This document shows positions 1 through 64,000 of a stretch of DNA of 64,000 nt, piece by piece. The DNA lies in the NCBI GenBank assembly GCA_017506865.1, contig JAFCMP010000536.1, forward strand, positions 1,488,001 to 1,552,000, written 5' to 3'. The DNA comes from Tribonema minus. Taxonomy: Eukaryota; Sar; Xanthophyceae; Tribonematales; Tribonemataceae. Positions within the stretch are counted from its first letter, which is position 1; the number at the start of each line of letters is the position of its first letter. Made by a program: the position numbers and the translations under genes. The notes beneath the pieces are model-generated. The model was not told the origin of the DNA, searched no databases, and worked only from the letters and a program-made list of their open reading frames with translations.

Positions 1-189
1 TGAGGGCGCTGACAGGAGACCGGGGTGGGTGGCGCAAAGGTACGTCCATCTGTCAAGGCACAGAGGTTCTAGTTGAAGATGCACGGCTCAGTATTTTGGT
101 GGCGGTGTGGGCGGCGACAGCATATACAAACCTCAACAACGGCAGGCAACAGTTCGTATCAACTTCCACCCCAGTGGCTACTCCAGGGC

Positions 190-590
190 TTGCCTGCATG
201 AGACGATGTCGCAGCGACGACTACGGCCGCAGCGTCATTGACAATCGCCATTCAAGTTATATCCAACCCCTGGGTTGGGCTCATCTGCATCAGATCGCGT
301 TGAAGCAGAGGCGGCGGCGGCATGAGCGAAACACGTTATCAACTCCCAATTACATGTAAACCTAGCATCCACCCTGGTGCTAGGGCTCACCTGCGTGTAA
401 CGACGTCGCAGCGGTGACGGCAGCCGCGCAGTGAGACGACCATTGTCAACTTCAACTTACATCAAAGCCCTAGAGTTAAGGTCTCACCTTGATGAGACGA
501 CGTCGCAGCGGTGACGGCAGGAGCGCCGTCGGCGACGATCCCTGTCAACTTTAACTTATATGTAAAACCTTGTGCTAGGGCTAACCTGCG
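190..590 (-). repeat. Partial tandem copies of the receiver exon end and its donor
   Basis: Downstream (on the minus strand) of the receiver exon there are at least three decayed copies of its last 40-90 nt with the donor region, near 190-260, 385-455 and 485-540, plus a short remnant near 575-595. The shared core is the stretch encoding AAAVTAATSSH (plus-strand look: gacgtcgcagcggtgacgg). Copies differ by substitutions and small indels and the spacing is uneven. None of the copies is needed for the gene model. Confidence 0.75.
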
Positions 591-645
591 TGAGACAACC
601 TCCCTATGCTTCAACTTACATCCAAACGCTAGACTTCGGGGTCAC

Positions 646-775
646 CTGCGTGAGACGACGTCGCAGCGGTGACGGCAGCCGCGCCGTCGGAGACGATCGT
701 CGGCGCGTGCCCCATGCGCCGCAGCATCGAGTCGAGCAGGCGCTGGTTGAGCACGCTGTCCTCCACCACCAGCAC
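646..775 (-). other. Receiver (REC) domain, first exon
   Basis: This exon encodes VLVVEDSVLNQRLL followed by an amphipathic helix and SDGAAAVTAA. The Glu-Asp pair (Mg2+ site) and the N-Q motif are typical of receivers fused to eukaryotic hybrid kinases. The acceptor (ggcgcag) and the donor (GTGACC, phase 1) are clear. The strand with the phospho-acceptor Asp and the Thr/Lys switch residues must lie in later exons left of position 1, so activity of the receiver cannot be judged here. Confidence 0.82.
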
Positions 776-3700
776 CTGCGCCGAGGCAGTTGCGAACGAT
801 GTGTCCGGGGGAAGCAGTGCTCAGCATGCATTAGCAGCGGCACACACGCAGATGCGTGCGTCGAAGTGGCATGCCGAGATTTCCGAGGTGCATGCTTCAG
901 AAGGACTGCTGGCTTAGAAGAACGGATGCACGTGAGGCGGTGAGGTGTCCTCCACCACCAGCACCTGCGGCGAGGCAGTTACAAATGTGGTGTCGCAGAA
1001 GTACTTAGGGGGGGGGAGATGCCCTATGGCGACGTCGTTCGAAGTGATCGGCAATGCGCACTGAGACTTTGAGGTGTTCACAAAGACACGTGTAGACTTC
1101 TGGTCGCAAGCCCATGGGCATCCACCACCTGGGCTTCTTCACGCCCTGGGCAGGATTTGATAAGAAGCACGTAGTGCTCAGCACGCGTTGGCAGCAGCGC
1201 ACGCGCAGATGCGCGCTTCGAAGCGCGCGCCGAGAATTGCACTGGCGTACGCAGACTCCAGACGCACGGTTCACGTTTCCGAGGGACTGCATTGTATGAC
1301 GAACGAATGCGCGTGGCATGGTGAGGTACCGCTGTGCATGCATCAAACGCCTCATGCATCACGTAGCGAGGCATGGATACGCAGCCGCTTGCGCCTGCAC
1401 AGACGGACTGCAACCCTAGGAAAAACGATCTTCAACCCTAGGGCCAGGGGATACCTATAGTACCTACGACACAGCGCGCGCGCGCGCGCCCCTCACCTGC
1501 AGCGGCACCGCCTGACCGTCCCCCAGCAGCACTTCGCCACGCGCGCTGGCAGCAGCGGGCGGCGGCGGCGGCAGCTGCGACGGCAGCGCCGCCAGCGCCG
1601 GCAGCGGCGCGCACAGCGCCTCGCGCGCGCCCGCGCAGCTGGCGACAGGAGCGCTGCCGCCGCCGCCACTGCCGCCGCTGCTGTCGCATTGCTCGACGAC
1701 TTCCGCGGGGAAGATGACGGTGAACGTGCTGCCGCGGCCGAGGGTGCTTTCGACGAGCAGTTGGCCCTGTGTGAAGGCGGGAGGGGGGGGGGGGCGGGGT
1801 CGTGAGCACTGTGTCTGGATGCGTCGCCGCCTGGTACTTCAACTACTTGAGGTACATGCTTTGGTGGTGGTGAACGTGCCGCCACAGCAGAGCGTCGTCG
1901 CCACGAGCAGCTGACTGTTGAAAGAGAGGGCCATGGAGTGCACATGCGTGGACGTGTTTGAAGTCTCAAGCATATGTGCGCCCAGGTGTCGATTCAACGC
2001 ATCTCGGTATCTGTGTACGGTGCTGTCGATGCAACGCATCTCTCGGTACCTGTACAAATGTCAGCGCATCTCGGTACGTGTACCAGTGTCGTACAGGCAC
2101 CGAAAGGTGTTGCATCGACAAACCCTGTGCTCATACATGTGAGGATGTGGTTTGGGCGGCAGTGCACCACTGCAGCCGGCACGGTGGATGGCCCGTCTTG
2201 TGACGACAGGCCCCAGTGCGCCATGCATGCCATTGATGATGTGGGAAAGCCCTCCTGGACCAGTAAGTTCAGTCACTCTTCACTGATACTTTGCAGCACG
2301 ATACCTAGTCCTTCAACAAGTTTTCCCTGGCGTCTTCATCCAAAAGAGCACTCGCCTTCATGAGGTCCACCACTTGTTTTGTGACGGACAGGCCGAGCCC
2401 CGTGCCGTGCGCCATGGTCTCGTTGGCGTGCCCCTTGCAGCGGTTGAAGCGCTCAAAAATGGCAGGCAGCGCGTCCGTCGGTATGCCGATGCCCGTGTCG
2501 GCGACTTGCAGCCGCAGCAGCACCGTCTGCACGCAGTGAAGTGAATGAATGAATGATCAAATGGGTGAATTCGTGAATTCATGATGTGCCGACACCTTCG
2601 CCAGCGATTTGCAGCCGCAGCAGCACCGTCTGCGCGCTGTGAAGTGAATGAATGAATGAATGATGGGTGAATTCATGATTTAGTGAGAGCCCGTGTGATT
2701 ATGAACATGCAGCCGCAGAGGAGGGTGCGGCGGCGCACATGAACGAACCATTGCATGAATTCGTAAACTTATTCATGATTCACCGATGAACAGGGCGAGC
2801 GCAGGAACGCCAATGCGCCAGCACCGTCTGCGCGAGCGCGTGCCACAAATCTGAGGAGGGGCACGAGTGACTGCGTCGACGGACGACGACAATGCTTCAG
2901 CACGTGCGAGCCCCCGTTGTCCGCGTTTTGTTGCTGCAGACGCACACATGGCGCCGCCGCCTGCACATGCTACACATGGCTGCACAGTCGCGCCGGAAGG
3001 CGCACTGCAGCCGGTGTGCACTCCCACCGGCGCCCTTCACGCACCCGCTCCCATCGCATCATACAGTGATTATACTGTACGGTGACCGCCGGCCGCGTCA
3101 AGCGCTACCCTGCCTGAACGTAAGCGCGCACACACGCGCATGCCTACGCACCTGCGGCCGCATGCACCCGCTCCCCTTGAACCAAACAAAAGTGAAAGCC
3201 CTATCGCCCCTGAACCTAACTCTAAGCGCGTACATGCCTGCATACCCATGCAGCAACCACCTGCACCTTTGCCAACAGTAGAAACCCTGCCGTACCTGCG
3301 TGTAAGCGTACACATACCTACACACTTTCTCCGTCCTATGAGTTGTTGCCGAAAGTTCTGACCAACTACATCAATGCAGGAGCACGCAGAGGCACACAGC
3401 TTCTTACTTGATGCCTACGTACCCGCGGCGGCGGCCGCCAACGGTAGAAACCCTATCCTACCTGCATGTATGCACACCCACCTGCACCTTGCCAACAGCA
3501 GAAACCCTACCGCACCTGCGTGTAAGCGTACACATACCCGCATTCTTCCGCCGTCCCTTGAGTATGTTGCCCAAAGTTTCAACCAACTACATCGACGCGG
3601 GAACGCGCAGTTGCACACAACTTTCACTTATCCCTAAGTACCTGTGGCGGTGGCCACCTGCCGTCCCTAAATTCAACCCTACTCCTAACCCTAACCGAGT

Positions 3701-9700: not shown

Positions 9701-12700
9701 ATGATCTAGAACAGATGTCTGATTGCGCGCGCACCAGTCTGCTGCGCCGCGCGCACAGCTGCTGGTGCGCATCTGTGCGGGCGCGCATGCGTACATACAC
9801 GCGCGTGATGCGTTCATCCAACCTTCTTCCACAGGGTACCGCTGCACCAACAATTCACCAAGCGTGCCGCGCTGCGAATGGCACGAAAAACAGATGTGTA
9901 GAATTCATCTGCAGTTGCATCCTGGGCGAGCGTGCGCGCGCGTCATGCGCACCTGGAAGAAGGCCTGCTTCTCCGCAACGGTGCGCTTCATGTCCCGCAG
10001 CGCGCGCTTCTTGGCTGCGCGCGGCAAGAGAGGTGGGAAGCGCGGGCAGGCGGAACATGGATGTTTATGCTGAGCATCGAGGCTTAGGCTTGAAGTTAGG
10101 GTTTTGAGGATTGGAGATTTGACACTACAACACTACCGAGGCCTCTGCCAGGAGAGGCTGTTCACCTTGAGGTGTGTGTGTGCAGCAGGACGGCACGAAT
10201 GCTTCAGTGCTGAGCATCGCGGCTTTCGTTTAGTTTGAGTGTTGTTATGTCGTTTAGGTCAGTACTTACAGTCCCGCAGCGCGTGCTTCTTAGCTGCGCG
10301 TGGAGGGAGCGCGGCACGGCAGGGGGGCACGTACGTTCAACTGCTGAGCATCGAGGCTGAGGCTTGAAGTTAGGTTTTTTAGGGTTGGAGATTTAACACT
10401 ATCGAGACCTCTGCCAGGCGAGGCTGTTCACCTTGAGGTGGGGCGCGCGGGGCGGGTGGGCACGGATTTGTTTTAGTGCCGAGCATCGATGCTCAGGCTT
10501 AGGGTTAGGGTCAGTTGTTTGTTTTTTGGCAGAACTTGAACACTGCCGAGATGTCTGCAAAGCGGTGCTTTCGCAAACGGACCGTCTCAGGAGCGAAACA
10601 GGTCACCCAAAAATGAAAGGCGAGACAGATGTATGTGCCATGCGATCCAGTGCAGGCATCCATGGGCTACCAGTGATTTAAAGGCGTCACAATTATAGAC
10701 CCTTGCTTTCAATGAAGGCCCATCCAGTCTACTGCAGGTCACGAATTTGTGCATGGCTGCGGCAGAGGGACAAACCAAACAGAGCTACAGTATAATCACA
10801 AGGAAAGCGTCGTCTACGCAGTACAGCCAAACGTTGGCAGAAGACATTATGTCATCTTCAGCCATCAACGCCAGACGCATGCCTTTGAGGTCAGCGTGGG
10901 GCTAGGGCTGTTTCGCCAAAACACCAGCAACTTTGAGCATTCAAAACAATCATTTCGAATCCCCAATATTCCGACGCAAAGTCTGACCCTAACCCTAACC
11001 CTCACCCTCAGGCTCTGTCAACGTCCGACCCAAACACCTAGACTACTAACCCTAACCCTCAACTCAATGTTAGCACCAAATCACGGGCTTTCTGGGTCCT
11101 CACCTTGAATATTTGTGCTCACAAACTGCGTTGGCGGCAGGACGCAACGGCAGCGGAACGAGGCAGCAGAGCTCAGTGCGATGCAACACACGTGATTGGA
11201 GTGCGCTCCGTAGTATCACCAACAGCAATACGGCGGGTGCGGGGGTGTGTATGTGCATGCATATATACACCTCAGTACATGTATGCCAGGTACAAAAGGC
11301 CTTTCTCTCCGATCCCCCCGATTTGTCACAGTTGCATGCAATGATGGGGAGTCACGCACATGGACACGTGCACCCCGGGGCAACGAGTCACTGAGACTCC
11401 CTCGCTGGGGCGAATCTCACTCATACAACTGCGTTGAACAGGCATTCATTCATGAAGCTCATCAGCGCATTGCCGTTGGTTTTCTTGAGGCAGATACTGG
11501 CACCTGCTGAGCATCACCCCATCTGCGTCGTGAGCACACTCAGACAGAGCCCCGCGCGCACGCACTACGATCATCAAATCCAACGAAATGTCTGCAGCCT
11601 CCGAGGCGCGCGCTGGCTGGCGCTGAGCATCACCTCACCTGCGCCGTGAGCACGCTCAGGAAGAGCGCCGCGTGCATGAAGCTCATCATCTGAGCGGTTG
11701 CCTACAAGGTATGTATGCATCTAGGCTCTAAAGCGCGCGCTGGCGCTGAGCATCGCCTCACCTGCGTCGTGAGCACGCTCAGGAAGAGCACCGTGTGCAT
11801 GAAGATCATCATCTCGATGGTGGGCTCGGGGTGGTCACCGTCGCCGTTGAGCCAGATGGCGCGCCCCTCCATGACGCTCAGCACTACGGCCAGCGACACC
11901 CACGCGTCCATCAGGGCGCTCGCGAGCTGCACCACATTGCGCAGAGAAAGCGATCGGTGAGTGTGAGGCTGCGCAGCACACAAAACAAAGAAGCAGTCGC
12001 CTGAGCTGAGCTTGATGTGTATTTGATCCGTTGAGCCAGATGGCACGCCCGTCCATGACGCTCAGCACGACGGCCAGCGACACCCACGCATCCATCAGGG
12101 CGCTCGCAAGCTGTAAGACACAAATAACATACATCAACATATATTCTCTGAGTCAAGAGAACGAGAAATAAACGCTCTAATCATGTTGCAGACTTCCTGG
12201 ATGTGTTTTGCCCTTCCATGGACGGCCAGCGACACCCGCGCGTCCACGAGGGCACTCGCGAGCTGCACGACAAATAGTGAAGTGCTTGTTGCTGAGTGCA
12301 AGACAGCGATGAGCGTCGTTTCTGTGCTTGATGTGTGTGTGGTCCTTCAGGAAGCTGCCCATCACGGTCAGCACAACGGCCAGCGACACCCACGCGTCCA
12401 TCAAGGCTCACGAGCTGCACGACACCCAGAAGAGAGACCCAGTGCTTGCTGAGCACACGCCACAAATGACTGCGTACCTCCTGCGCATGCTGCGCGTCTC
12501 CCAGAACTGGACAGGATGACAAGAACACCCACGCGTCAATCCGGGCACTGGCGACTGCGAGATACAACAGAGAATACTCTTGAGCCATCGCAGCAAGGGA
12601 CACACATTTGGAGTGGCCGAATGGACCATGTACCTCAAGGGTACTAGCTGCAATGCGCGCCTTGAGATCCTCAGGATGGCTTGCTGCCTCGCAAGATTCG

Positions 12701-15700
12701 TCATGACAGCGGTGCAGGGCGCGCGCATGCTGCGTTGGAGCGCGATACCGCGGTCAAAACGGCAAGTGGCATCCGGACACGCTCCTGAGCTGTTGCACGT
12801 ACAACCGTGGCAGCGAGAAGCACGCGACCCCCGCCTCCTGTAGATTGCCAAACCCTAAACCTTCGCAGGTACAGATCACGTGCAGGTTCGACTTCAGATG
12901 TCGCTCCGTATCTACCGGAGTCCACCACCTTCATTCGGCTCCGCACATGATGCTACGCCTCAACGCGTTGCTGCAAGAACTTCAGGTGTTGACCATCGCA
13001 CGCACAAGTCTGCCGTGCTTGCCTGGTGCAGCGCGACCCACGTACCCCAACTGTCTTTGGTACTGTGCAATTGTTATTGCGTGGCTTGCCACTGTTGCAA
13101 GGAACGACCAAGGCGCTGCTTCAAGTATGGCCAACTTCAATCCTCACCTGCGAGAAGCGCAGCGCGACCCACCCTTGCAGGGGGAACATGAGCAGGCTTG
13201 CCACCTGCGGCAGCGTTCGAGGGGGGAGGGGAGCCGGGGGTGTAGGGAGGCTCAGCATCAAGTTGCTGGGAAGCCGTCTGTCGTCATCACATTCAGCCCA
13301 CGCCATATTCTACTGCTGCAACTGCAACTGATTTGGCAGCAGAAGAGAGCAACACCGTGTCTGTAAAAGGTTGGCTGAGACAGATTGCGGCGGTACTCAA
13401 CTGTAGCACATCGCAACTCTAACTTCAATGCATCTTGCGGACGTGGCAGCGACGACAAAATCTGCTGCAGGCAACATCAAGTCTGCCATATTGATGCTCT
13501 CATGGTGTATACATGCGCGCATCTGGGAGTGGAACGAGCCATTGGAAATCCATGCAATACACTCCATAGGAATCACATGGCTTTGTCCACCGCACGCGTT
13601 CTGCAACGGCAACTTGCACTACGCCAGAACTGCAACCGAACCGCAAGCGGCGACTCACCGGCACCAGATTGGAGAGGAATATGAATCCCATGATGAACAG
13701 GCACGCCACATACTCAAAGATGTGCAGCAGCTGCTTGCGGTTCAGCTGGTGCACCCTGCACGGCAGCACCAAGAAGGAGCATGCACAACGTTGACCCTCG
13801 GACCTGGTGTTCAAGTGCCCATATTCAAATGTCTAGACCCAGGCAGGGTCTACAGTAAGCCATGCTCCGAAGCGCAACAACTGGCCGGAAGGAGCGTAGA
13901 CAAGCGAAGCCACTGCTTGATGACGGCGCAAGTCCTTTTATTCACTTGACAGCGTAGGGTACCGACCGCGCGTGTTGTGTAACATGCATGCATGCATGTA
14001 CATGCATGCGTGCATGTGCAGGAGGAGTCCTGTGGAGCGACTCACCGGTTGCGCAGCGCGGGGAAGAGGTGCAGACTGGGTATGCCGCTGCCCGTCTCCT
14101 CAAATATCGCCATGCGCATGACCTGACGGAAGAGGGCGGAGGCGGCAGTCAGACTTTTATGTTTCGCACAAAGGGCATCTATGAGCTCTCAGCGCATGAG
14201 CGTAAAGAACTGACGGCGTTGGAAGCAGTCACATGCTTAAGGATAGCGTTGGTCGCTGGGCGTGTCGCCCTGCCTACCGCGGCTCGTGCCGGCAGCGCAG
14301 ACGGCACATGAAGCCGGGCGGCAACACTGCAATTACGCACACGTCAGCAGCGCTCCGCAGCCGACGACCGGAGGCGTACGCGACCCCGCGCGAGCAGCCG
14401 ATGCGGTACGTATGGAGCGCCGTCAGGCCACCAGCGCCGCCGCCACCACCGGCTGTGCAACGTGCGGGCATGTCTCCGAGCCTACTTGCGTAGCATGCGC
14501 GCGCTGCCTACTGCCACGGCCAAGGCGTGTGCGTTTTGAGAGCTGCTCGACCCTGAACACGCAAAAAAAAAAAGACCTCACAACGGCTGCGCGCTCAATC
14601 ACAGCCCCCCCCGCCCCCTTTTATCGCACGCATACCCACCCCCCCGCCCCCCAGTTATCACAAGCCCCCCCAGCCCCCCCCCCTTTGTTCTCACCATGAT
14701 GAGGTAGAAGGTGATGTAACTGCCGCTCGAGTCCGCGAACGCCCAGCTCAGGTAGAAGTGCACCCAGCTGCCCGTGAGGAACGACGCGTTGAGGGCGAAG
14801 GCCGCGGGCACCGCTGCCGCCGCCGGCGCCACCACCATGATTACCACGAGCCAGACGAGGAAGCGCTCGTGGCACGCGTACAGCGGGTCCTGCGCGCGGG
14901 GGGGGGGGGGCGGGAGGGGGGGGGGGGGGGGGGAAGTTGAAGTTGAAGTTGATGAGGACGGTGCAACCGCGATGAGGTCCACGAGAGGGGCGTGAGATGC
15001 ACGAGGGGGGCGTGATCCTGTTGTAGTCGGCGTTTGAAGCAGGACACTGTCTCCGAATCGCCACCAGCACAGCGGTGACCGCGACTCAGACGAGGAAGCG
15101 CTCGTGGCAGGCGTTTGCAGCGATTCCTGCAGCAGTCAAACTTGAAGTTGATGGTGAGCATGGCGCCGCCGGACTGCACAGGCTGCCGCAGCGCGTGCCC
15201 GTGCGCCACAGCCAGGGTGCTTTGTTCCAGGCCTGCGAGGGCTGCGGAACCCAGGCACCAACTGCGCCAGTTCCTCGCAGAATCCTGCCTGGCGCCATCT
15301 TCCACGCCCCCGCCACAGAAGGCGCCGCACGACCGATGTCCACCTGCAGACGCACCGCAGCTGCGCACACGCGCTGCTCAAATACCCCTGCTCATGGGGA
15401 CGAGGTGCGTTCCCAAAGGAAGTCGCGCGTGCGCCAGCGTTTTGCGTCCCCGATCCGACAATGAAACTTTCTTTTTGAAACTGCGACCGCCACAAGTCGA
15501 GGTTTTATCGTCCTCGCGCAAGGGTCCCGAGGACCGACCAGCAGACACGCAACGCTTGCACGCAGCGTAGCGCCCGCCCCCGGCGACCGCGCTTGCTACT
15601 TCAGTATTATGTGTGCGTCACAGTTCTTCAAGTGAGACGCTCCTGCATGGTCCGCGATCACCCGCGACCCAAGTCAGACGACGCCAACGGCGCACGGCTA

Positions 15701-18350
15701 CCCATCAGCTCTCTTAGTAAGCTACTTCTCGCCGACGGTGCAGCGCTCCCCCTAGCCCCACCTGAGGCAAACGACGATACTGGCGTACGCCCAGCTATCG
15801 GGACTCTTGATAAGCTACTTCTCGCCAGCGGGGCAGCGCTCACCCTGACGAGCGCGTGCAGCTTCTATCAGGACTCTTGATAGGCGACTTCTCGCCGCCG
15901 GGGCAACGCTCACCCTGACAAGCGCGTGCAGCTTCCAATTGAGCAGCAGCCCCCCCTACGTGCAGCGTATCATGACTCTTAATAAGATACTTCTCGCCGC
16001 CGATGCAGCGCTCACCCTGACGAGCGCGTGCAGCTTCCACTTGAGCAGCAGCCCCCCCACCAGCAACTCCACGCAGCTGCACAGGCTCAGCCGCAAACTG
16101 TCTTAACAAGCTACTTCTCGCTGCCAGTGCAGCGCTCACCCTGGCCTTCACCCGAGGCAGACAACGACACTGGCGTCCGTTCAGCTATCAGGACTCTTAA
16201 TGGAGACCAATCAAACATCGTAGAGCTCAAGGTGACAAGGTGCGGTCAGCTGCAAATGCCTCCCAACAATAACCGTGGTCGCGGCTGCTGCGGCAGTTGG
16301 CCACAAGTCAAACAGTGCCGCCATTACTAAGCTACTTCTCGCCGCCGGTGCAGCGCTCACCCTGACGAGCGCATGCAGCTTCTATCAGGACTCTTAATAA
16401 GATACTCCTCGCCGCCGCAAAAGCGTTCACCGTGACGAGCGCGTGCAGCCTCCACTTGGACACTGGATAAGCCACTTCTCATCGCCGGTACAGACAGCAC
16501 TCACCCTAACGAGCGCGTGCAGCTTCCACTTGAGCAGCGCCCCCCCCACCAGCACCTCCACGCAGTTGCACAGGCCCAGCTGCAGTGTGAGCAGCGGCGG
16601 CGTCACGCCCACGCGCGCCGCAAACAGCCCCGCCACCACGCCCACTGCAACAGCGGCGTGCGTGAGACAGTTGAAAACGAGTACATTGTATGTGTAGGTA
16701 CGGTCAGAGCTTGGTCAGGGTGTTCACATGCGTACGGACAGCAAAGACCCCGCCACCACGCCCACTGCAACGGCAATGGCGAGCACACGCGCGCACGCGT
16801 GACAGGATCGCGTGAGTAGGCATGGGTGCAGACAGAGCTTGGTCAACTCATGCATGTATGTGTGCAGTCATGGCTGTGTATGGATGCGCCGAGGTGCGGG
16901 TCAGGTTCCGAGGCTAAGCTGTGGGCGGTCCGTGCGAAGCTGGCGGTAAACCTCTGATCCTTTAACACATATGGCGGTGACAGTGGTCACAAGCAGGCGA
17001 CCAACTACGAGTGACACACACTGACTGCCAGTAACACTGCGTCGCAGCCGCTGACAAACTAAATGCAAGCAAGCCTGCGTCGCAGCAGCAGCGCCGCGAT
17101 CGCGCCCGCTTGAACTCCGCTGCCGCTTCATGCATGGCAGCGAGGGATATAACACACAGACTGCACTCGCACGCGCCTGCATGTGTCGCAGAGTGGTAGC
17201 GCTCCGACCACAGCACCAGCAGCAGCAGCGATGGCGAGTCTCGGATCTACACGTAAGCTCGCCGCTGCGTGTGCAGAATGCGCCCGCTGCATTGCAATTG
17301 GAGCGCTGTGCGAGTTTCGTGCCAGATGCGGAGCGGCTGCTGCAGTAGCGGAGGCGTTGACAGGTCATGCGATGCTCAACTGTCGAGTCAGCGGGATCGC
17401 GAGAGGTGCGACGTGCCAGACCCGGTGCGCAAGTGCTCTGGTGGGGGCAACGAAAGGACGAATTGTTTGAATACGTTTCAGGTAGGCAGCGCTGAAAACT
17501 TCTTACTCACCCATATAAAGCGGCCACTCCCAGTACGGCGAGAAGAGCAGGAACACAAAGGTGATGCCATTGCCGCACCTGCGAGCGCAGGCGAACGAAG
17601 GGCACTTGAGTGTCAAATGGCGTCGCCCCCACAGGGCCGTCCTAGAGCTCATCTGTGAACGCGCATCTTGCATGACCAGACGCATCTGAAAAGCATGTGT
17701 GAACGCCTTCATCACAGCAAACAAAGCAGGGCACTGCAACTGCGTGCAGCTTGCAGTGTGCTGCACTGGCATAAGCAGAAGTGGTGTCCACAGCGCCTTG
17801 AAGGCTGGAGCGTGCAGATTTCTGCAGCCCATGAATCCTGCATCCCGTTGACGCAATCGATCGGCTGACCATGCTTCATAATGTCGACCTCGCATCACGC
17901 ACCAAGCGAAAAAAGCTAGGTGGATCCGCATCGTGTCATCCTCACATCCATATGCTCGCCGATTCTTCAACGCGTAATGTGTAACGCAGCTTAGGGCGAT
18001 GTGTGCACTGCGTAAAAGAAATTGTAATGCTCCGGATATCACTTGCAACCGCAACCAACCAAATCACTGAGCCAGGCTTACCAGAAAAGTGCCACTCGGC
18101 TGATCCGGCTACTGGTCAAACTCAGCAGCAGCCGCGCAGCGAGGAAGTAGAGTGTCGCCTGCAGCACCACGAGCCCAAGCACCAGCCACCACGGCCTGCG
18201 CCTCATGACCTGCTGCTGCTTCTGCAGCCATGTCTGCTGCAGGCGTCCTGGGCTCTCGCCAATCGTGAAGTGCGACACCGTGGGCTTTTCCACCGTACCA
18301 CGCGCGCGCACCGCCATCTCCACTCCTGTGCCAGAGGATCTCTCGCCCAT
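646..18350 (-). CDS. Hybrid sensor histidine kinase with MASE1-like membrane sensor (3' part lies beyond left edge)
   Basis: Exons, 5' to 3' on the minus strand: 18350-18082, 17578-17511, 16644-16505, 14889-14695, 14122-14046, 13755-13659, 13204-13148, 11926-11762, 11125-11104, 10014-9953, 9201-9136, 8137-8086, 7205-7087, 5961-5923, 5417-5352, 4767-4568, 3970-3745, 2526-2356, 1766-1497, 775-646. All joins keep frame, giving 830 codons before the window ends in phase 1. Domain order is MASE1-like membrane region (about 50-356), coiled linker (357-384), HisKA with SHEFRTPL (phospho-His about 388), HATPase N-box NLGSNAVKYS, G1 DTGIGIP, G2 GTGLGL, a Gly/Ala/Pro linker, then a receiver start (VLVVEDS...NQRLL). 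The start ATG sits in GAGCAATGG and precedes a basic cytoplasmic N-terminus. Role: membrane sensor that autophosphorylates on His and passes phosphate to its receiver and then to an HPt protein. The receiver Asp lies outside the window. The ligand cannot be inferred. Family and frame are secure; single exon edges less so. Confidence 0.85.
945..985 (-). repeat. Upstream copy of receiver exon start with acceptor
   Basis: The plus-strand segment repeats the start of the receiver exon (VLVVED codons) together with its acceptor (ctgcggcgaggcagtt versus ctgcgccgaggcagtt at 776). It is about 180 bp upstream of the true exon on the minus strand. This is one of many acceptor-side partial copies in the window. 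Confidence 0.65.
1870..1927 (-). repeat. Upstream decayed copy of the exon starting GQLLVES
   Basis: Reading the minus strand gives an acceptor-like cag followed by codons for QLLVATTL and then GGTFTT, a damaged echo of GQLLVESTLGRGSTFT in the exon 1766-1497. It is a partial acceptor-side duplication about 150 bp away. Confidence 0.6.
2583..2870 (-). repeat. Copies of the G-box exon acceptor region
   Basis: The sequence around the acceptor of exon 2526-2356 (plus-strand gcagcagcaccgtctgc and the following gtgaagtgaatgaatg) recurs at 2610-2660. A shorter piece (ccagcaccgtctgcgcg) recurs at 2818. Flanking ttcatgattcatgaatt-like AT-rich words repeat with them. The copies cover the acceptor and only the first part of the exon. 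Confidence 0.65.
3140..3660 (-). repeat. Repeats flanking the donor of the low-complexity linker exon
   Basis: The donor area of exon 3970-3745 (plus-strand tacgtacctgcggcggcggcc) reappears in weaker form at about 3150, 3415 and 3640. A longer unit containing gtagaaaccctaccgtacctgcgtgtaagcg-like sequence repeats at about 3280, 3440 and 3500. This intron is built mainly from decayed tandem units; no coding exon is seen inside it. Confidence 0.6.
6600..7025 (-). repeat. Four donor-side copies of the HisKA end exon
   Basis: The 3' end of exon 7205-7087 (plus-strand cggcagcagtcctcgaagaac) is repeated at about 6618-6670, 6745-6790, 6865-6910 and 6970-7010. Each copy spans some 40-55 nt of exon end plus donor. 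Two share the tail catcctgagcatcgctgtct, showing that they amplified together as a larger unit. The copies are decayed and not required for frame. Confidence 0.75.
7087..11125 (-). other. Linker and HisKA dimerisation/phospho-acceptor exons
   Basis: A 22-nt exon (11125-11104) carries frame from phase 0 to phase 1 and allows the next exon (10014-9953) to read AKKRALRDMKRTVAEKQ, a helical linker. The exon 9201-9136 contains QHISHEFRTPLSVI, the H-box with the phosphorylated His after Ser. Exon 8137-8086 gives the second HisKA helix (LTPQQKDQVRCMSSAG) and exon 7205-7087 reads SMLSMIVDDLLELFRMEVGR, the usual end of the HisKA hairpin. Reading frame closes exactly through all five exons, which supports the microexon. 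Confidence 0.85.
11510..11700 (-). repeat. Donor-side copies of the last membrane exon
   Basis: The 3' end of exon 11926-11762 (plus-strand cctgcgtcgtgagcacgctc) recurs at about 11522-11560 and 11640-11695. The latter also keeps the aagagc...gtgcatgaagctcatcatc part. The copies include the donor position and are preceded by a recurring gctgagcatc word. Confidence 0.72.
12030..12560 (-). repeat. Four acceptor-side copies of the exon starting LASALMDAW
   Basis: The 5' part of exon 11926-11762, which encodes LASALMDAWVSLAVVLSVM, is repeated with its acceptor at about 12030-12112 (nearly intact, extends to the IWLN codons), 12215-12265, 12350-12418 and 12500-12557. Divergence rises with distance from the true exon. 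Some copies keep an open reading frame over more than 20 codons, so alternative acceptor use is possible. Confidence 0.8.
14903..14935 (-). repeat. Poly-G tract (poly-C on the minus strand) ahead of an acceptor
   Basis: A nearly pure G run on the plus strand lies immediately upstream (minus-strand sense) of the acceptor of exon 14889-14695. On the transcript it reads as a poly-C tract and probably serves as the polypyrimidine tract. Similar C runs precede several acceptors in the plus-strand genes. Confidence 0.7.
15710..16460 (-). repeat. Donor-side array of the MASE1 exon end
   Basis: The 3' end of exon 16644-16505, encoding LLKWKLHALVR with its donor, is repeated at about 15841, 15911, 16013, 16358 and 16430 (plus-strand ctgacgagcgcgtgcagctt). 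It is joined to an intron unit with aagctacttctcgccgcc that itself repeats about eight times, with further fragments near 15750 and 16130. The 16013 copy also carries about 65 nt of exon. A single acceptor-side copy lies at 16745-16785. Confidence 0.8.
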
Positions 18351-37595: not shown

Positions 37596-37628
<33 letters not shown>

Positions 37629-47687: not shown

Positions 47688-47736
<49 letters not shown>

Positions 47737-49341: not shown

Positions 49342-52300
49342 ATGCTCGCACGCGTAGCAAGGCGCAGCGTGGCCATGACGCACATCGCCTGCATGAGGAA
49401 TCTCAGCACTAGTGCTGTGCGCGCGTTCGAAGATGCTCCCGTGCCTGACAGCGTGCCGGATGGCAACGCCGGCCTGCCTCCTCAGCTGTACATGTTTGGC
49501 ACGCACAATGAGGATGCCGAAGTGGAGATGGTAAGCCGCTCTCAGTGAAGCACATCTGTCCCAACTTGAAGTGCAGCATTTTTGAACCACCACATGATGT
49601 CATGAACTAAACGTTACATGCCCCAACCTCGTATAGAATCTGGAAGGTAGATGATGTCTTGCTTGAAAGCTCCAAAGTTTGAACAGTAGATGATGTCTTT
49701 CTTGACAGTCTCAAGCCCTGAACGGCGTGCACATCATTGGTACCTGGTTCGCTGCCTTTACATTACAGTGGAAATGAAATGAAATGAATCCACATGTTAC
49801 CTAGTAGCACATTTCAACCACAAGCATGGGTTCATCTGAAAAACAACTCATCTGGCAGGGATGCGACGCGACTCACTCAAAAGCACACAAAAGTACCCTG
49901 ACCCCCCTCCCCCCTTCCCCCCTTTCCTTCCTTCGCCCCCTCACAGCACGCCCTGGACATAATCGCCGCCTCCCGGCACACCGCCGCGGCAGCCGAGATG
50001 CGATGCAATGCCATGCGATGCACTCGCAACACACGTTGGACCCTGACCCACCTTCTCTATCCCCTCCCCTCACCCCCCTTGACAGCACGCCCTAGACATG
50101 GTCGCCGCCTCCCGGCGTGCCACACAGTAACCCCCGCCCTTCGCGTCATGTCCATCGTCGCCTCCAACCTGACCCCGCCCCCCCTCCTCCCCCTTTCCTT
50201 CCCCCACCCCCCCGTGACAGCACGCCCTGGATATCGTCGCCGCCTCCCGGCGCGCCGCCGCCGCCGCAGCCGCAGCAGCGCCCAGCCTTCGCGTCATGTC
50301 CATCGCCGCCTCCGGCACGCACGCGCTCGCCATGTGCTCCAACTCCCTCGTCAAGTCCATCGACGCGGTCGACATGAACCCCAATCAGATCCTGCTGAGC
50401 AAGCTGACGGCGGCGGCGGCGGCGGGGCTGGCGAGCGCTGATGACCTGGCGGCGTTCCTCGGGTGAGCGTGCCACAATTGAACTTGCAACTTCAAGACAC
50501 CTTCCGTCTCGTTGCTCGTATCGCGGCTCAAGCTACTGCCACTTGCCATTCGTGCCGCGTGCGTGCGTGTGGGATTCGCTGAGCGGGCGCGTCATGTGCG
50601 CAAATTGGACTAAAATTTTGATGTGATAGGCCGACAAATTTATGGAAAACATGCTGCAGAGGGCGCAAGCGACCAAGGACTTCACACACGCTCGCGAGCG
50701 TATAGCGATAGCCAAGGAACAGAAGTCCAGCATGTGATCGACTTGCCAAGAGGGCTCGACCACGCTGCACCTCCCTCAGCAACGCGGCGGTGGGGGACGG
50801 GAACGCGCACGTGTGCGCGTGCCATGGCGCGCTCGCAAAGTGCATCATCTCATGATGGTCGTCATACTGCTGCAGGCGCCGCTGCCTTGTTGCGCGCCGA
50901 CGCAGTGCGCAGCAGTGCACAACCCCGCCGTGCTTACCTACCCCCTGCAGCACGGGCAGGGACGCGGATGCATACATACTTCAATTGGTCTGGCATCTCT
51001 CGTCAGTAGATGAAGCTAGTGCTCTCACGACATATAGCCTTCGTGAGTTCAGGAAAGAGACCTACATGTGCATAGCGCGTGCGGTGATCCTGCCACTGCA
51101 GGAGCCGATGCCGCGACGCGCGCTGGCGCAGCGCGCAGTGCGCAGCAGCGCTCAACCCCGCCGTACCTACCGACCTACTGTACCCCTGCAGCACGGACGG
51201 CGACGCCGACGCGCGCGCCGCGGCCTACATATCACTATCACATCACTGCAGGCGCCGCTGCCCCGTCGCGCACTGACGCAGCGCGCATCACGCAGCAGCG
51301 CTCAACCCCACCGTACCTACCTACCTACCTACCCCTGCAGCACGGGCAGCGACGCCGACGCGCGCGCCGCGGCCTACATATATCAATATCATATCAGTGC
51401 AGGCGTCGATGCCGCATCGCACGCAGTGCGCAGCAGCGCTCAACCCTGCCGTTACCTACTTACCTACCCACCCCTGCAGCACGGGCGCCGACGCTGAGCA
51501 CACAACAGCCTTCAACACCACAGGACCGCGCTGAGCTGCAGCGCAACAGTGCAACATTCAGTCCTGCGTGTTTGTGAACTGCTGCGAAACACACACAGCA
51601 CTGACAGTTCAGCGCCTCTCCCCCACTGCAACGCGGCAGCTCGGGCGGCGACGCCGACGCGCGCGCCGCGGCCTACGCGCAGCGCGTGCGGCGTCACCTG
51701 GACGCCGAGGCGGCGGCGTTCTGGGACGCGAACGCCGCGACGGTGCGCGCCGGCACCATGCGCTGTGGCGCCATGGAGCGCTTCTATGTCGTGCTGCGAG
51801 CGTACATGGCGCGCTTTGGCGCGTCGCCGGAGGGGCTGCGCAGCGCCGTGCACGCGACGTACGGCGCGCCGGCGATGTGGAACAAGTGAGTCGTGTCGTG
51901 TAGTGACGCTGGGTGTGTTGGAGCGTCACCCGTGGCTGTTGCAGTTTTATTGAGGTTGTGGCAGTTGCATGCGCTGTGGCGCCATGGAGCGCGTCGCCGG
52001 AGGGCCTGCGCAGGGCCGTGCACGCGACGTACGGCGCGACGGCGACGTGGAACAAGTGAGTCAGTGTTGGCCGCGGTGCGGGGAGAGCTTGCCGCTGCCT
52101 GTGTGCCTCGTGCAGCGAATCGCAACTTGGCGTCTCGCGGCACGCCTCCCCTTGCACATGACCGCCAGCCTGTGCCTGCGCCACCTTCACCTGTCTATGT
52201 ACCCACCTCACTACCTACCCTTACACTTCGACCTCTCAATACCTCAACTGTTGTCGGCCTCACAACAGAAACAGCCTCAGGGACATGTTGCCGCTTCGAC

Positions 52301-53651
52301 CAGCAGCTTCATTGCCAAGTTTGATACTCCTACTGTTCTACCTCAGTCACAACGAGAACTACACTAACTAACAGCACAGAATCATATTGCCTGCCCCCCC
52401 CCTTCCCCCCCCTATATTGCCTGCCCCCTCATTTCCCCGCCCCTGTATTGCCTGCCCTCCCAACCCCCCGCAACAGCAACCATTGAGTCTTTTGTTGACT
52501 TTTATTTTAGCCTACAAAGATACGAGCCAAACTCGCACTTGTAGCACCTGAAAGTACTGCTCCCCTCCTCCCCCCCCCCCCCCCCCCCCAAGGTACATGC
52601 CCGCTATGCCCGAGCACGCCACGCAGCGCCTCGTGGAGGGCCTGCCGCCGGTCGCGAGCGCGGGGCTCATAGAGGCCATGGCCGCCGCGCAAGCGGTGCC
52701 GCCGCGCGCGAACCTCGTGCTGCATACCCTGCTGCACGGTACCTACCCCATGGACAGCGACGCGCACCGTCCCGTGTTCCTGCGCAAAGAGCGTTTCGCT
52801 GCGGCACGCGCGCACGGCACGCTGTCGCCGCGACTTAACTTCCACGTTGGCCCGATTCAGGTGAGCGCGCACGCGGGCGGTGCAGCAAGTAGGCAGGCGC
52901 TGCGCAGCAGGGTGTGAGCGCTGCCTGCAGTCGCGTGCTGCGTTCTAGAGAACAGCGCGCCGCCGCACGTGCGCTAAACACGCTGCCGCCGGGCTCAACT
53001 TCCACGTCGGTCCCATCCAGGTGGGCACGTAGAATGTAGCATGCGCATTAGAGATCGGTGGCGACCCGAGGCATTTGCATGCCGTGCGCTGCATGGCAGA
53101 ACGGTGATGCAGTCCCATGGGCGGCGCACCGCAGGGACCCAGGTTCCTAAAGGTGTCTGTCAAGCCAGCAAAGGACGTGGGCCAAAAAATCAGCAGCGGA
53201 GCATAAAGGAAACGCTGACATTTGTCACCGATGTTGTTCCCCGAAACCTATCTCGTGTCACCAACACCGCCCAAGCACCTCACCCCACGCTGCCCCCGGC
53301 GCCGGACGCCCGCAGGAGGTCGGCCCGCGACTGGCGGCAGCGCTGCGCAGCGGCAGCGGCAGCACCGCCGCCGCCGCCGGCTACGACCTCATCACCATCT
53401 CCAACATCCTGGACATGCTCGATGACGTTGCAGCGGCGAAGCCCGTTGTGCAGGCCATCGCGTCGTGCCTTGCCCCCGGGGGAGCGCTGCTGTGCCGCTG
53501 GACGGGCTCGCACGCGCGCCCGGGGTTCGTGTCCGAGGTGTTCCGCGCGTGCGGACTTAAGGTGGATGACGCCGTTGACGCGCGCCTCATGGCGCTGGAG
53601 ACGTCCTTCTACATGCCCGAGGTGACGCTGGGCGTGCGAAGGCAGCAGTAG
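49342..53651 (+). CDS. DUF3419/BtaA-like 3-amino-3-carboxypropyltransferase family protein
   Basis: Exons: 49342-49530, 50221-50462, 51640-51885, 52593-52860, 53316-53651 (TAG). The frame closes to 426 residues, near the usual 380-420. The N-terminus (MLARVARRSVAMTHIACMRN then LSTSAVRAFED) is basic and lacks acidic residues for about 30 positions, like a mitochondrial presequence. Next are THNEDAEVEMHALDI (the family's E-D motif), an Ala-rich loop and VMSIAASGTHALAM (SAM-binding turn). KSIDAVDMNPNQILL follows, the D-x-N-P-x-Q motif. The C-terminal half has YDLITISNILDML and a late strand CLAPGGALLCRW. BtaA moves the aminocarboxypropyl group of SAM to diacylglycerol, the first step of betaine-lipid synthesis. 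The family is well supported. Substrate is not, and an organelle-targeted N-terminus would be unusual for an ER-type enzyme. Confidence 0.85.
49940..50150 (+). repeat. Two acceptor-side copies of the exon starting HALDIVAASRRA
   Basis: acagcacgccctggacataa and acagcacgccctagacatgg, at about 49945 and 50085, repeat the start of exon 50221-50462. The second copy also keeps the LRVMSIVAS codons (50136-50165). Poly-C intron words repeat between copies, so three junction units lie in tandem at about 135-bp spacing. Confidence 0.88.
50865..51500 (+). repeat. Four acceptor-side copies of the exon starting SGGDADARAAAY
   Basis: Units at about 50945, 51187, 51337 and 51476 carry gcagcacgg(g/a)c followed by the gacgccgacgcgcgcgccgc core in the two middle copies. 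The units also contain ctgcaggcgccgctgcc, gcgcagcagcgctcaacccc and taccta words. The true exon starts at 51640. This is the largest acceptor-side array here; its middle copies preserve the DADARAAAY codons. Confidence 0.88.
51965..52065 (+). repeat. Donor-side copy of the exon ending AVHATYGAPAMWNK
   Basis: The segment repeats MRCGAMER codons, skips about 45 nt, then repeats ASPEGLR and AVHATYGATATWNK codons with the GTGAGT donor. The internal deletion relative to exon 51640-51885 shows that the copy decayed or was rearranged after duplication. Confidence 0.9.
52978..53032 (+). repeat. Donor-side copy of the exon ending LNFHVGPIQ
   Basis: cgctgccgccgggctcaact followed by tccacgtcggtcccatccaggtgggc repeats the end of exon 52593-52860 about 140 bp downstream. 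Confidence 0.88.
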
Positions 53652-59400: not shown

Positions 59401-59414
59401 ATGCAGCGCTAGAC

Positions 59415-59760: not shown

Positions 59761-59769
59761 CTTGCGCAG

Positions 59770-62542
59770 CGTTTGGGTCCGCCGCCTCCACGTATCTGGG
59801 GGACAGCAAGTGGAAGGCGCCGATGACGCCCATGTACGTGCGCGCAGCAGAGGTGAGCGCGCACAGTACAGCACAGTACAGTGAGCGCTGTGCGCTAATG
59901 AACTGTGGGTGGATCGGTGTACCCAGGTTTTGCGCGCCGCCGCGCTCCGCCTTTGATCAAGGGGCTCACCTGAAGTAGTTTCTACCTCTTGAGTGACTTC
60001 ATGAAGGCACTACTAAGCATTGTTGATCGCTTTCAACTTCCCAGAACAGATTTCACGGCCCGAAAATATATACTTTGAAGTACATATGCCACAATCACCA
60101 CCTGAAGCCCTCCCCTTGGTCATGGCAGAATGCCTCAAGCACAGTGATTTGCGCCTGTTGTGCGCTAGGCCCAACTGTTGGCTTAGGTCGACATCCCGAA
60201 GTCGGCTCGTTGAGGCTGTGGAAAATGAATCATCCAGCGCCGCACAATCGTTTGATGCGAGACACATACTGGTCAGACTTGTAAACACTCTCCCCCCCCC
60301 CCCCCTCTTGCCCATCGCCCTCTGCCGATCCTGGGTTCTGAGGCTACCATGGAGCTTCCGATTGCATAACAATTTTTTTTCACTGCATGCCACAAATTTC
60401 AAGGTTTGTAGACTAGTGCAAGATGCTCCAAGAAATCAACCAAGGCCAGCTTGAAAGCTCTTGCAACGCGTGGCCAGTGCGTGACGATGCCGCCTGCACA
60501 TCCCGCTCAGTAATAACTCCGCTGGCATGTGCATGCAGGTTGTGACCAAGGTGGTGGCCGAGCAGCACTCCACAAGCTGCGACGGCACGAGGTGCGCAGC
60601 CTCAGGCAGCATCACATTATGGAAAAAAATGTTGCTGCATTAAACTACGTCGAGAAGTACACAACTTTGTCAATCGTTTGGGCTTTAGTGCGCCCTGAGC
60701 GAGCATCACAGCCAGTGAGTACGCAACGTAAAGAAGCAGAACATATGCGCACCGAGGTCAAACGTAAACGTGACAGCGTTTAGAGACGTGTTGTGACTGG
60801 TGCAAGTGCATACCTTTCCAGGGCCTGTTCCAGGGCCTGTTCAGCCCGCAGTTGATATCTTCAACCACATGAAGAAGCTGATACGATGCCAGTGAACCCT
60901 TCATCAAAGGGCGGATGAGGGCTGCGGATGGACCCCAAACGTCAGGCAGCGCATCACGATCACCACACGCTTCTGCTTGAAACACTGATCGACAGATAAT
61001 GCTGACAGTCTTGCAATCAAGACCTACAAATGCAATAAAGACCTATAAATGGGCGATCCGCTGGTCCGTTTGTGCAGTGCAGAGTTTCAGCTCGTCGCAA
61101 GTAGGAGGTTCGGCTACGTAGGCTCACGCATGTCTGCACCAGTTGCTGCGCAAAGTCCACAACACTGTGGCTCTGCGCCACGCACACCAGGAACAGCATT
61201 TTGCACTCTGCAGTCACGTGCCGGCGGTAGCGTTATTAGGTCTCTTTTAGCCACTAGTTGTGCATCGCTGCGTCATTATCCACGCCCTTGCTCCAGCCCT
61301 CGTTCAATGGCCTCTCAGAGCCTCACAGCAGCCGTAAGCCTCACTGGTCTGTTATATCCATGACTCGAGTACTCGCAGTTATCAGTGCTGGCCACCGCGC
61401 AGAGTGCAGAGTAGGCACCAGTAGACCCGACCCCACTTCAATTTGCGACGCGCACCGGTATAAGATGTTACCAGCAGCGCATCACCACTCAGCAACAGAC
61501 ATCATTTGCTGCAAGCTTGCTGCATACACTTGCATTGCTCTTGGTGGCACAGAATGCGTCCACTGTGAAAAACCATGTCATTCACGTCGACAGCAAATCG
61601 CTGCTATCATTTCCACGGCATGTCTTATCATGACCTCATTGCTGCTGTTGGTGGCGCAGTGCGGATGACAAGAGCCAGTGGACGCCTACCATCCTGGATA
61701 TTGCGGCAGCAAGTGGCGAGCCTTCCGTCACACTGGCAAAGGTCAGAGGGAATGCAGCCGTTGATGTTCTTCGGCACTGCTGCGGGGTCCCGCGGACGTA
61801 CGAGCGCTTGAGTACATTAAGAAATCTGACTTGTGGAGGTTCAGACTGCAGATGGACAGTTTCAAATAAGACTTTCGAGCATCACTTATAAATGCCTGAA
61901 GGCAACTACTGTAGCAGCTGTAGGCTTGAGCTCACAGGACGGCTGGTATGCCTGCAACTTGCGTTTAGAACACGCATGCAAGCCTCACTTGAAGTACTCT
62001 TGCTAAAATGGGCAACTCGTGCTGTTCACGCCAATAACGCTCACTGCAATCATGAACAGCTCTTGGTGCTTGATGATATTTTTCTTTAAGCGCAGTACAG
62101 GGACCTGCAAACAACGCAACCTGCAAAAACTTGCAGCACCTTTCTTTATTTACATCTTTAAAGAAGGTGCCCTTAAATCATCAGGTGCTTCAGTCTGCGG
62201 GACTCTTGTGGCGATCAACGCTGAGGACTGGCCGGAGGCTTCCATGTTCAACAGAAGCTTCCATGTTCAACAGAAGTCGCTCAGGGGTTTTCTCAGTTTC
62301 CTCGACGACTGTTTGTTTTCCTGCACTGCAGTTTGCACGTATCAAGAGTGTACATGACTACATATGATTACAGGTACCGTGACATTAAGTGCGCTATCCG
62401 TGCTGAGCAGATTATGCCACGCGCCAAGATCATCGCGACGGACTACAGCGCGGGCATGATTGAGGCCATGCGCGCGCGCATCGCCAAGCTGCGCGACTCG
62501 GACGGCATCGCCAACGTGCACGTCGACGTCGCCGACGGCGAG
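59770..62542 (+). CDS. Class I SAM-dependent methyltransferase (partial; ends unresolved)
   Basis: Exons recognised: 59770-59852 (FGSAASTYLGDSKWKAPMT then PMYVRAAE), 60539-60591 (VVTKVVAEQHSTSCDGT), 61660-61741 (SADDKSQWTPTILDIAAAS then GEPSVTLAK) and about 62374-62542 (RAEQIMPRAKIIATDYSAGM then IEAMRARIAKL and NVHVDVADGE). LDIAAASGE is motif I (SAM loop), ATDYS ends motif II with the ribose-binding Asp, and VDVADGE is motif III. The first three exons join in frame. The fourth either starts after an AAG acceptor at 62390 (phase 0) or needs an unseen short exon between. The exon before 59770 must end in phase 1 and was not found; later motifs lie beyond 62542, perhaps outside the window. Substrate is unknown: ubiquinone-type, betaine-lipid N-methylation and small-molecule methylation all remain possible. 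Confidence 0.72.
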
Positions 62543-62699
62543 GTATGTATGTACTTCGAAGTATGTACTTCAAGTATGTATATGCTATGGTACTTGAAAA
62601 CACAAAAACCTTCTACATGTTATGGTGCTTGAAACAGTAAAGCCGACCACTGCCGTGTCTGAAAAGAGTAAAGCCTTGTACAAGATGTGGTGCTTGAAA

Positions 62700-62780
62700 A
62701 CAGTCAGCGCGCATCGCCAAGCTGCGCGACTCGGACGGCATCGCCAACGTGCACGTTGACGTCGCCGACGGCGAGGTATG
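62700..62780 (+). repeat. Donor-side copy of the methyltransferase exon end
   Basis: About 70 nt encoding RIAKLRDSDGIANVHVDVAD with the GTATG donor are repeated with a single synonymous change, 235 bp downstream of the original. A shorter remnant (VDVANGE codons plus gtatgtatg) lies at 63228-63260. Confidence 0.92.
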
Positions 62781-62814
62781 CATGCATGTATATGTTGTGT
62801 GGTGCCTGAGAACA

Positions 62815-63050
62815 GTGAAGCCTTGTACATGCTATGGTGCTTGAAAACAGCACCATGCCATGGTGCTTGATAACAGAAAAGCCTTGTACATGTCATGGTG
62901 CGTGAAAACAGTAACATGTCATGGTGCTTTAAAACAGAAAAGCCTTGTACATGTCATGGTGATTGAAAACAGTAACCTGTCATGGTGCTTGAAAATAGAA
63001 AAGCCTTGTACATGTCATGGTGCTTGAGAACAGTAAAGTAAAGCCGACCG
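62815..63050. repeat. Intronic minisatellite, unit about 58 bp
   Basis: About four units of agccttgtacatgtcatggt followed by gcttgaaaacagtaacatgtcatggtgcttgaaaacagaaa. Looser members start from 62590. The unit is itself a doubled catggtgcttgaaaacag word. Confidence 0.9.
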
Positions 63051-64000
63051 CTACTTTTACTGTAAAGGTAGTGGTCTGCTTGGTTGAAAACAGTAAATCT
63101 GGTGATCTGCTTGGTATCAAACCTGTGTTGACGTGAGTGGACGCGCTAGCATGCCGACATTGCCGATGGTGATGTTAGTCATCGAAAGTTTGGGAGAGGG
63201 TTTGCAAAATTGAAGGCCACGCAATGGGGCTCGTCGACGTCGCCAACGGCGAGGTATGTATGTATGTATGTACATGTGGTGTGGTGCTTGAGAACAGTAA
63301 AGCGTTGTATATGTTATGATGCTTGAAGGCAGTAAAGTAGTGGTCCTGAAACGTCCGTGGTACATTTGGTAGAAAGCAGTAAATGTAGTGGTCTGCTTGG
63401 TGTTGAGTGTATGACAAGGTGACTGGACGCTGACCAGCACCCGTGTGCATCGCCATGCTGGGTTGGCGTTGCTGATGGTAATGCAAACCATCAAGCAGTG
63501 TGGAGAACTTGGTGCGCAATCGTAGGCCGCGGACGCGGGGCGGCCGTTTGACGCGGGGCGGCCGTTTGTCGCGCACACGCAGCCAGACTCCATGCCGCAA
63601 CAAGCGGTGCGCCTTGCCCTCCAAACTTGAACATTAGCTGTGCTACACCCGCCAGGCTGTGCAATTCTAATGTTTGCTGTGTGCTGGGATTTTTTTAACT
63701 GTTGTTGAAACCTGTGCACAGATTGCAAAGTGTCGCCGAAGCACTGCTGCAGCATGCAGTGGTGCGGATGGTCAGGGGCGTTGCTCATAAATAGTGGTAT
63801 TTGATTGCAGGCTCCACTCATCACGGCAGTCGATAACATTAGGGCTATTGAGTTTCCAGCAGTATAAATGCTCTATTGTTAAAGCTACATAGTTAAAGCC
63901 AAGGTAACACTAGGGGGTAGGGTCACCGAATCTGTGAATGGCTTCAATTACACTGAAATTCTGGTCAGGGTTTTACAGAACTACTTCACAGTGGACAAAT

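Follow-up and report, generated by a model that had tools for sequence, protein, structure and literature searches.

Intronic copies of exon edges in Tribonema minus, probably left by short tandem duplications across splice junctions

Exon-edge copies in two neighbouring genes

We analysed a stretch of 64,000 nucleotides from the 158-Mb genome assembly of Tribonema minus (C533:1488001-1552000, hereafter the window), in which the introns of two neighbouring plus-strand genes carry partial copies of the edges of their own exons. T. minus is a xanthophyte, or yellow-green alga. Gene 1 (26738-48378) encodes a multidomain protein with a cyclic-nucleotide-binding domain (domain accessions PF00027, PF04144, and PF02893) that is 53–60% identical to its homologues P0004-P0010, which include brown algal proteins, with Ectocarpus, Pylaiella, Choristocarpus, and Chrysoparadoxa among the sources. 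Our tests used its 26 curated exons, a chain without internal stops; further 5' exons lie outside this set, and a mini-exon at 45558-45590 was dropped from the model, as P0004 has no counterpart. Gene 2 (49342-53651) encodes a PF11899-type protein from five exons (49342-49530, 50221-50462, 51640-51885, 52593-52860, and 53316-53651), and its public T. minus protein is JKP88DRAFT_335551 (P0001; 484 amino acids). The curated set thus holds 31 exons with 58 exon sides.

The intronic exon-edge copies of T. minus are a real feature of this sequence. Comparison of the window with itself returned 132 same-strand repeats, 124 of them with a spacing below 3 kb; 112 lay less than 1 kb apart, compared with none in one dinucleotide shuffle. 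In 204 kb comprising the window and 14 loci of 10 kb, repeats less than 1 kb apart were direct in 248 cases and inverted in 13, while one shuffle of each sequence produced no local repeats. A significant partial copy was present in the adjoining intron at 29 of the 58 curated exon sides, significance being a score beyond the 99.5th percentile obtained from 1116 comparisons between exons and non-adjacent introns. The matches reached the exon edge at an offset of 0 in 24 of 29 cases and within 3 bp in 26, with the other three lying 18–175 bp off the edge, and their direction was that predicted for a tandem unit, with acceptor copies upstream and donor copies downstream. All seven places named in a first-pass annotation of the window carry such copies in the self-comparison.

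Copies were also concentrated at splice junctions. Exactly one junction was contained in 27 of the 46 non-redundant local repeats of the gene region, compared with 9.3 ± 2.9 after circular shifts, and only one of 2000 shifts equalled or exceeded this count, although repeats from a single array are partly dependent on one another in this test. Among repeats of at least 85% identity, 12 of 14 spanned a junction (2.2 expected). Intron-only repeats numbered 18 (26.7 in shifts), exon-only repeats one (4.4), and neither exon-exon repeats (4.3 in shifts) nor whole-exon repeats (1.3) were found among the 46, and tandem exon duplication was rejected for this region; at another locus, L003, a predicted exon was copied almost in full. 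Edge test and circular shifts together bear out the earlier claim that copies are enriched at exon edges over random placement. This enrichment needs no junction-directed mechanism, since a tandem copy puts exon sequence into an intron only if its unit crosses a junction. That constraint, together with a presumed loss of duplications that lie within exons or take in whole ones, would account for some of the excess over a random placement that retains coding-disrupting events, and slower visible decay of exon-like copies adds to it.

Several edges carry more than one copy (all copies in the two genes are on the plus strand; the second interval in each set of brackets is the full feature). The donor edge of exon 28369-28455 is followed by copies at 28559 and 28692 (28411-28826), with periods of 148 and 133, and the three copies have an exon-like part identical over 45 bp; the edge and register tests used 28459 as the exon end, the corrected value being 28455. 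Upstream copies of acceptor edges lie at 26310 and 26538 for exon 26738 (26310-26779), at 34930, 35112-35178, and 35302-35383 for exon 35492 (34929-35573), at 49950 and 50086 for exon 50221 (49950-50313), and at 51194, 51343, and 51484 for exon 51640 (51194-51676); for this last unit, copy 51343 (51341) was used for register, profile, and intron length, and copy 51194 for codon counts. Two donor copies follow each of the exons ending at 37972 (38034-38076, with a stop codon, and 38132-38155; 37930-38155), 39476 (39555-39588 and 39694-39720; 39438-39720), and 42656 (42752 and 42873-42897; 42632-42943).

Single upstream acceptor copies belong to exons 32332 (32199-32227; 32199-32360), 33511 (33332-33381; 33332-33560), 36949 (36748-36792; 36748-36993), 38872 (38641-38684, with an in-frame TAG; 38641-38915), 40123 (39957-40012; 39957-40178), 41879 (41712-41738; 41712-41905), 43631 (43507-43531; 43507-43655), and 46395 (46247-46286, 40/40 identical; 46247-46434), and the weakest listed, a short match of 15/15 at 37576-37590 that has lost its AG, belongs to exon 37778 (37576-37792). 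Single downstream donor copies follow the exons ending at 32418 (32559-32577; 32400-32587), 33654 (33712-33779; 33588-33782), 37044 (37227-37261, GT lost; 37010-37274), 39012 (39082-39180; 38917-39185), 40894 (41079-41114; 40859-41134), 43909 (44073-44154, copying edge 43828-43909; 43828-44160), 51885 (51968-52055, part of which the public protein model treats as exonic; 51819-52067), and 52860 (52958-53020; 52797-53029). The copy at 42060-42090 of the exon ending at 41965 (41935-42092) is identical to it at 31/31 positions in the exon part while the intron part has diverged, and the tandem unit for donor end 44427, present in full (44373-44752), has an exon part identical at 54/55 positions beside a strongly diverged intron part. 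Some copy boundaries vary by a few bases between analyses.

Exon-edge copies elsewhere in the genome

The first-pass annotation had proposed a genome-wide habit. Copies do occur on many contigs, but their distribution is patchy and most predicted exons elsewhere lack them. With a strict threshold, edge copies were found at 10 of 94 predicted splice sides outside the window, counts that are probably conservative given the high thresholds there (control maximum 85–104). These came from five of the 11 hand-placed 10-kb loci with testable predicted sides (5/64 sides; one each in L003, L007, L009, L010, and L014) and from three of 13 kinesin loci (5/30 sides; three in L023 and one each in L024 and L028); a narrower exon rule gave seven edge matches in 48 sides. 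Weaker edge copies (the L025 donor) and those of L009 exon 3349-3597 (offset 14) fall outside the 10/94. The 10-kb loci are biased to larger contigs, with L002 and L003 on the contig of the window itself, and the exon prediction is a rough ab initio one, trained on genes 1 and 2 only and without independent validation, which missed or split some curated exons and called at least two copies exons (L023 1074-1100 and L024 1074-1139).

Kinesin exons gave a similar picture. Six were picked by rule (on each contig the top match no longer than 375 bp, first six of twenty), and self-comparison revealed edge copies in L024, L025, and L028 and none at the matched exon of L026, L027, or L029. Among eight best-match kinesin loci, L023 had edge copies at three exons, while none were seen at a recognised edge in the others, where exon prediction was poor. 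Two overlapping partial matches were visible by eye in the kinesin list, C511 561699/562024 (L023) and C246 700950/701357 (L024); Pfam-level genome searches with kinases and ABC transporters were too coarse for partial copies. Multi-copy donor-edge arrays with a conserved exon-like part and diverged spacers were observed at L009 3534-4313 (four copies), L023 1993-2608, and L028. Three loci, L003, L006, and L013, are GC-rich (64–67%) with dense predicted coding and few local repeats, and could represent intron-poor genes or foreign DNA.

A paralogue of gene 2 allowed a direct comparison. When P0003, the paralogous protein, is matched to gene 2 and to its paralogue, the matches are interrupted at nearly identical positions (residues near 57, 140, and 225–230), and these common exon breaks indicate, for gene 2, that the introns are older than the copies. 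Three exons fetched from the paralogue locus (L030) showed one acceptor-side unit, a different and smaller set, and none of gene 2's copies was present at the corresponding junctions of L030. Given the scattered loci and the differences from the paralogue, copies seem to have independent, patchy origins.

Decay of the copies and gene annotation

Copies differ from their exons by 0–22%. The range of decay described earlier, from identical to barely visible, is supported. Mismatches at codon positions 1, 2, and 3 numbered 28, 33, and 55 in 417, 418, and 424 columns (27 exon-copy pairs, 1259 aligned columns), and the changed codons comprised 43 synonymous changes, 55 nonsynonymous changes, and three stops. 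A surplus at position 3, with the first two positions changing at comparable rates, is the pattern of a free copy beside a constrained exon, and the extra copy looks neutral; both this pattern and the three stops make the test for a reading frame kept by selection in these pairs negative. Coding constraint on both copies, an idea taken from the 52860/53020 unit, was dropped after the pooled codon count. In 13 arrays, summed exon-copy differences were 129 in 1249 columns and copy-copy differences 131 in 815, with seven columns differing on the exon alone and 79 varying among copies, a star-like arrangement around the exon, although some short copies in these arrays align poorly. Splice dinucleotides are retained as GT in 12 of 14 copies and as AG in 10 of 13, near the expectation under neutral decay. 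By eye, the donor copy of exon 51640-51885 retains two residues (R and T) common with P0002, a relative's transcript-derived protein, that are changed in the exon.

Retention of GT or AG in 22 of the 27 copies, and the presence of part of one copy, in frame, within a public gene model, could instead point to functional alternative or regulatory exon ends under selection. We regard this as very unlikely given the codon-position pattern of an unconstrained copy, the three stops and some gaps, and the absence of any copy common to the paralogue at the junctions compared. The gene model itself also argues against it. P0001 has two extra stretches relative to the curated gene 2 model, mapping to 51968-52055 and to about 50775-51190, the former being the donor copy ending at 52055 and the latter a piece of intron. 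P0002 covers the place of the 52055 copy, the single copy it could show, and lacks that stretch, and P0003 lacks both. The use of this copy as an exon in P0001 is thus, judging from these protein alignments, probably a mis-annotation.

The near-identity of the copies at 28.4–28.8 kb could raise the concern of an assembly artefact, or of haplotypes joined head to tail. This is highly improbable, as the copies show the divergence range given above, stand singly or in arrays with private changes, and occur on at least nine contigs, while no repeat of the gene region holds a whole exon (0/46).

Origin of the copies and erosion of their spacers

For 27 hand-listed units (the edge-test matches plus the 26738 unit, excluding the off-edge matches at 31121 (downstream), 50221 (downstream), and 52593 (upstream)), unit length was 104–299 bp, with a mean of 176 bp and a standard deviation of 46 bp. 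With the 12 nt next to the splice site excluded, the intron part was homologous in tandem register in 14 of the 27 units, above every one of 24–26 null comparisons, and most unit breakpoints are eroded. The bounds of the copies at exon edges, the tandem register, and the circular shifts support the proposal of the first-pass annotation that these are junction-spanning tandem duplications. With a probability of roughly 0.7, we conclude that exon-edge copies arise by frequent short tandem duplications that are tolerated since the spare copy is spliced out. That duplication is continuing, as was also proposed, is plausible from the near-identical array at 28.4–28.8 kb, the one place on which this idea rests. 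An RNA-mediated process was considered as the reason for copies ending at the exon edge and was dropped, as the 44374 unit and others are homologous through the spacer.

Several observations weigh against duplication followed by simple decay. Spacer homology failed to beat all nulls in 13 of the 27 units; outside the window, six of 16 above-threshold matches lay off the exon edge, and the L003 edge match spans nearly a whole predicted exon. The 13 units and the few off-edge matches would fit non-tandem templated insertion, in which sequence from the neighbourhood of a break would be copied into an intron during repair, through strand annealing or end joining, and for which Pace et al. give a vertebrate precedent at similar scale (PMC2671141). 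Random templates would, however, often be exon interiors with no junction, and just one of 46 local repeats is exon-only; inverted copies are rare (13 vs. 248), and 14 units stand in tandem register, leaving little room for this explanation.

The other difficulties concern the spacers. In 16 junction-crossing alignments, which retain only alignable sequence, exon-like columns were 91.5% identical and intron:intron columns 82.9%, roughly the proportion that constraint on one of the two exon copies would produce. Pure duplication with neutral decay predicts spacers diverged by about 18% where copies are diverged by 9%, but the spacers proved far less similar than that: in a best-of-shift profile computed over windows of 10 nt (null ∼0.53), similarity was 0.91, 0.89, and 0.84 on the exon side and 0.71, 0.66, 0.68, 0.61, 0.61, 0.59, 0.58, 0.56, and 0.58 on the intron side. 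Simulations with equal rates yielded 0.81, 0.76, and 0.70 over 10–60 nt at indel ratios of 0.1, 0.3, and 0.6, compared with 0.623 observed, and none of 100 runs was as low at each ratio up to 0.6; a ratio of 1.0 gave 0.66, with two of 100 runs as low as observed, but the exon side then fitted badly (0.78). Spacer rates of two to three times the rate of the copy fitted the observed profile in a simulation without ascertainment. At L009, four intronic copies have a nearly identical exon-like part while most of the spacer is unalignable, a recognisable stretch being left in two spacers; L023 and L028 retain more spacer similarity. This faster erosion may come from more rapid indel turnover in spacers rich in repeats, from gene conversion templated by the exon, or from ascertainment through the exon part.

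Under gene conversion, tandem duplication would make the copies and later exon-to-copy conversion would keep the exon-like islands young while spacers diverge. The sharp fall in similarity at the splice site (from 0.91, 0.89, and 0.84 to 0.71 and then about 0.6), the conserved islands amid mostly unalignable spacers at L009, and the 44374 unit, with its exon part at 98% and its aligned spacer at about 72%, all agree with such conversion. On the other hand, still-similar spacers would be converted too, older copies contain stops, indels, and lost splice sites, and a two- to threefold difference in rate suffices, which unstable spacer sequence might supply; we therefore consider conversion unlikely. 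Much the same doubt, if marginally more of it, attaches to the idea that exon edges act as a standing source, with junction-spanning duplications followed by repeated exon-to-copy transfer.

Intron length and other features of the window

Exon-edge duplication was initially proposed as the main route of intron growth, which intron lengths and repeat coverage do not support. Introns with copies (n = 20) had a median length of 720 and those without (n = 9) a median of 648 (P = 0.41), with intron 26887-28368 scored as lacking a copy despite a listed junction-spanning repeat there. The 27 units total 4761 bp beside 21,628 intron bases, with one unit (26738) upstream of the introns listed. Of the non-exon bases in the gene region, 29% lie in local repeats; of all bases, the share is 22.6% in the window and 1–37% (median ∼5%) in the 14 arbitrarily placed loci. 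Exon-edge duplication is a contribution to intron growth, not shown as its main route.

Edge copies also occur in one gene outside the curated set and apparently in another. Gene 3 (62468-63337, plus strand) has an exon that ends near 62542, where the donor reads GTATGT; the edge at 62474 is copied at 62707-62775 and again from 63229 onward, and these donor-edge copies adjoin a tandem array of intron sequence with 61-bp and 35-bp units (62547-63038). Judged by eye, one exon of a minus-strand gene at 11506-12425 apparently has three additional acceptor-edge copies and two additional donor-edge copies. The telomere-like hexamer GGGTTA forms internal arrays in introns or near genes at 25758-25886, 27024-27256, and 37080-37140, and an array of diverged 70–100 bp units at 15672-16584 is not tied to any curated exon. 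An Rfam scan of the window returned no families at the gathering score.

Discussion

We propose that short tandem duplications of about 100–300 bp would strike T. minus genes often, with break repair or slippage as the presumed mutational source. A duplication running from intron into exon, or from exon into intron, would leave one exon and its splice site undamaged and add, towards the intron, a truncated second edge that carries a surplus splice site. The intact junction would go on being used, presumably via exon definition, and the spare copy would then behave as intron, decaying neutrally and open to further duplication. Duplications within exons or of entire exons would break the protein and presumably be mostly lost. 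The outcome would be introns with ghosts of exon edges upstream of acceptors and downstream of donors. We provisionally attribute the faster erosion of spacers to repeat-rich, indel-prone sequence together with ascertainment.

Tandem genomic duplication was reportedly put forward as an intron source by Gao and Lynch in 2009. It is established as a source of new introns (PMC3443670; PMC4974935). The likeness lies in short intragenic duplication, copied splice sites, and splicing that hides the extra DNA, and in the potato case an intron-exon edge was copied (PMC4974935). In those cases, however, a new intron or exon arises, whereas in T. minus the intron pre-exists, no new intron was seen, and the copied edge stays behind and decays as a ghost, which happens repeatedly within a single gene. 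In vertebrates, repair-mediated duplications (Pace et al. 2009; PMC2671141) are closely linked, tens to hundreds of bp long, and seldom include exon/intron edges, and two duplicated exons tested there showed no constraint; partial exon/intron donors made up four of 824 in Table 2 of that paper, while in T. minus a junction falls within 27 of 46 local repeats of one gene region, and tandem register holds for half of the units.

Two further systems resemble the T. minus copies in part. Tandem exon duplication likewise places exon sequence beside itself, but it concerns whole exons, often usable, whereas the T. minus copies are partial edges. Introners also alter intron content genome-wide, but they copy themselves between genes (PMC9860276), whereas the T. 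minus copies are local to their own exon; introners were discarded, as the stretch at 28000-29000, the one compared, matches a single place in its own genome when simple repeats and very common words are skipped. Searches of open-licence PubMed Central turned up no description of exon-edge ghosts as a genome habit. The kind of event is already known; what looks new in this lineage is how dense the copies are, how strongly they favour junctions, and that they form arrays of several copies.

Ghosts on this scale have a practical consequence, as exon-like copies can enter gene models, probably so in the public gene 2 model. They also make it possible to test how the splicing machinery passes over strong decoy sites 100–300 bp off, and they offer a within-genome clock for intron turnover, in which the copy can be set against the exon, exon third positions, and the spacer. 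If exon edges did act as a standing source, islands of exon edge would be refreshed within fast-changing spacers and exons would evolve in concert with their own intronic ghosts. For T. minus, what stands out is that half of the exon sides in two genes carry intronic ghosts of themselves.

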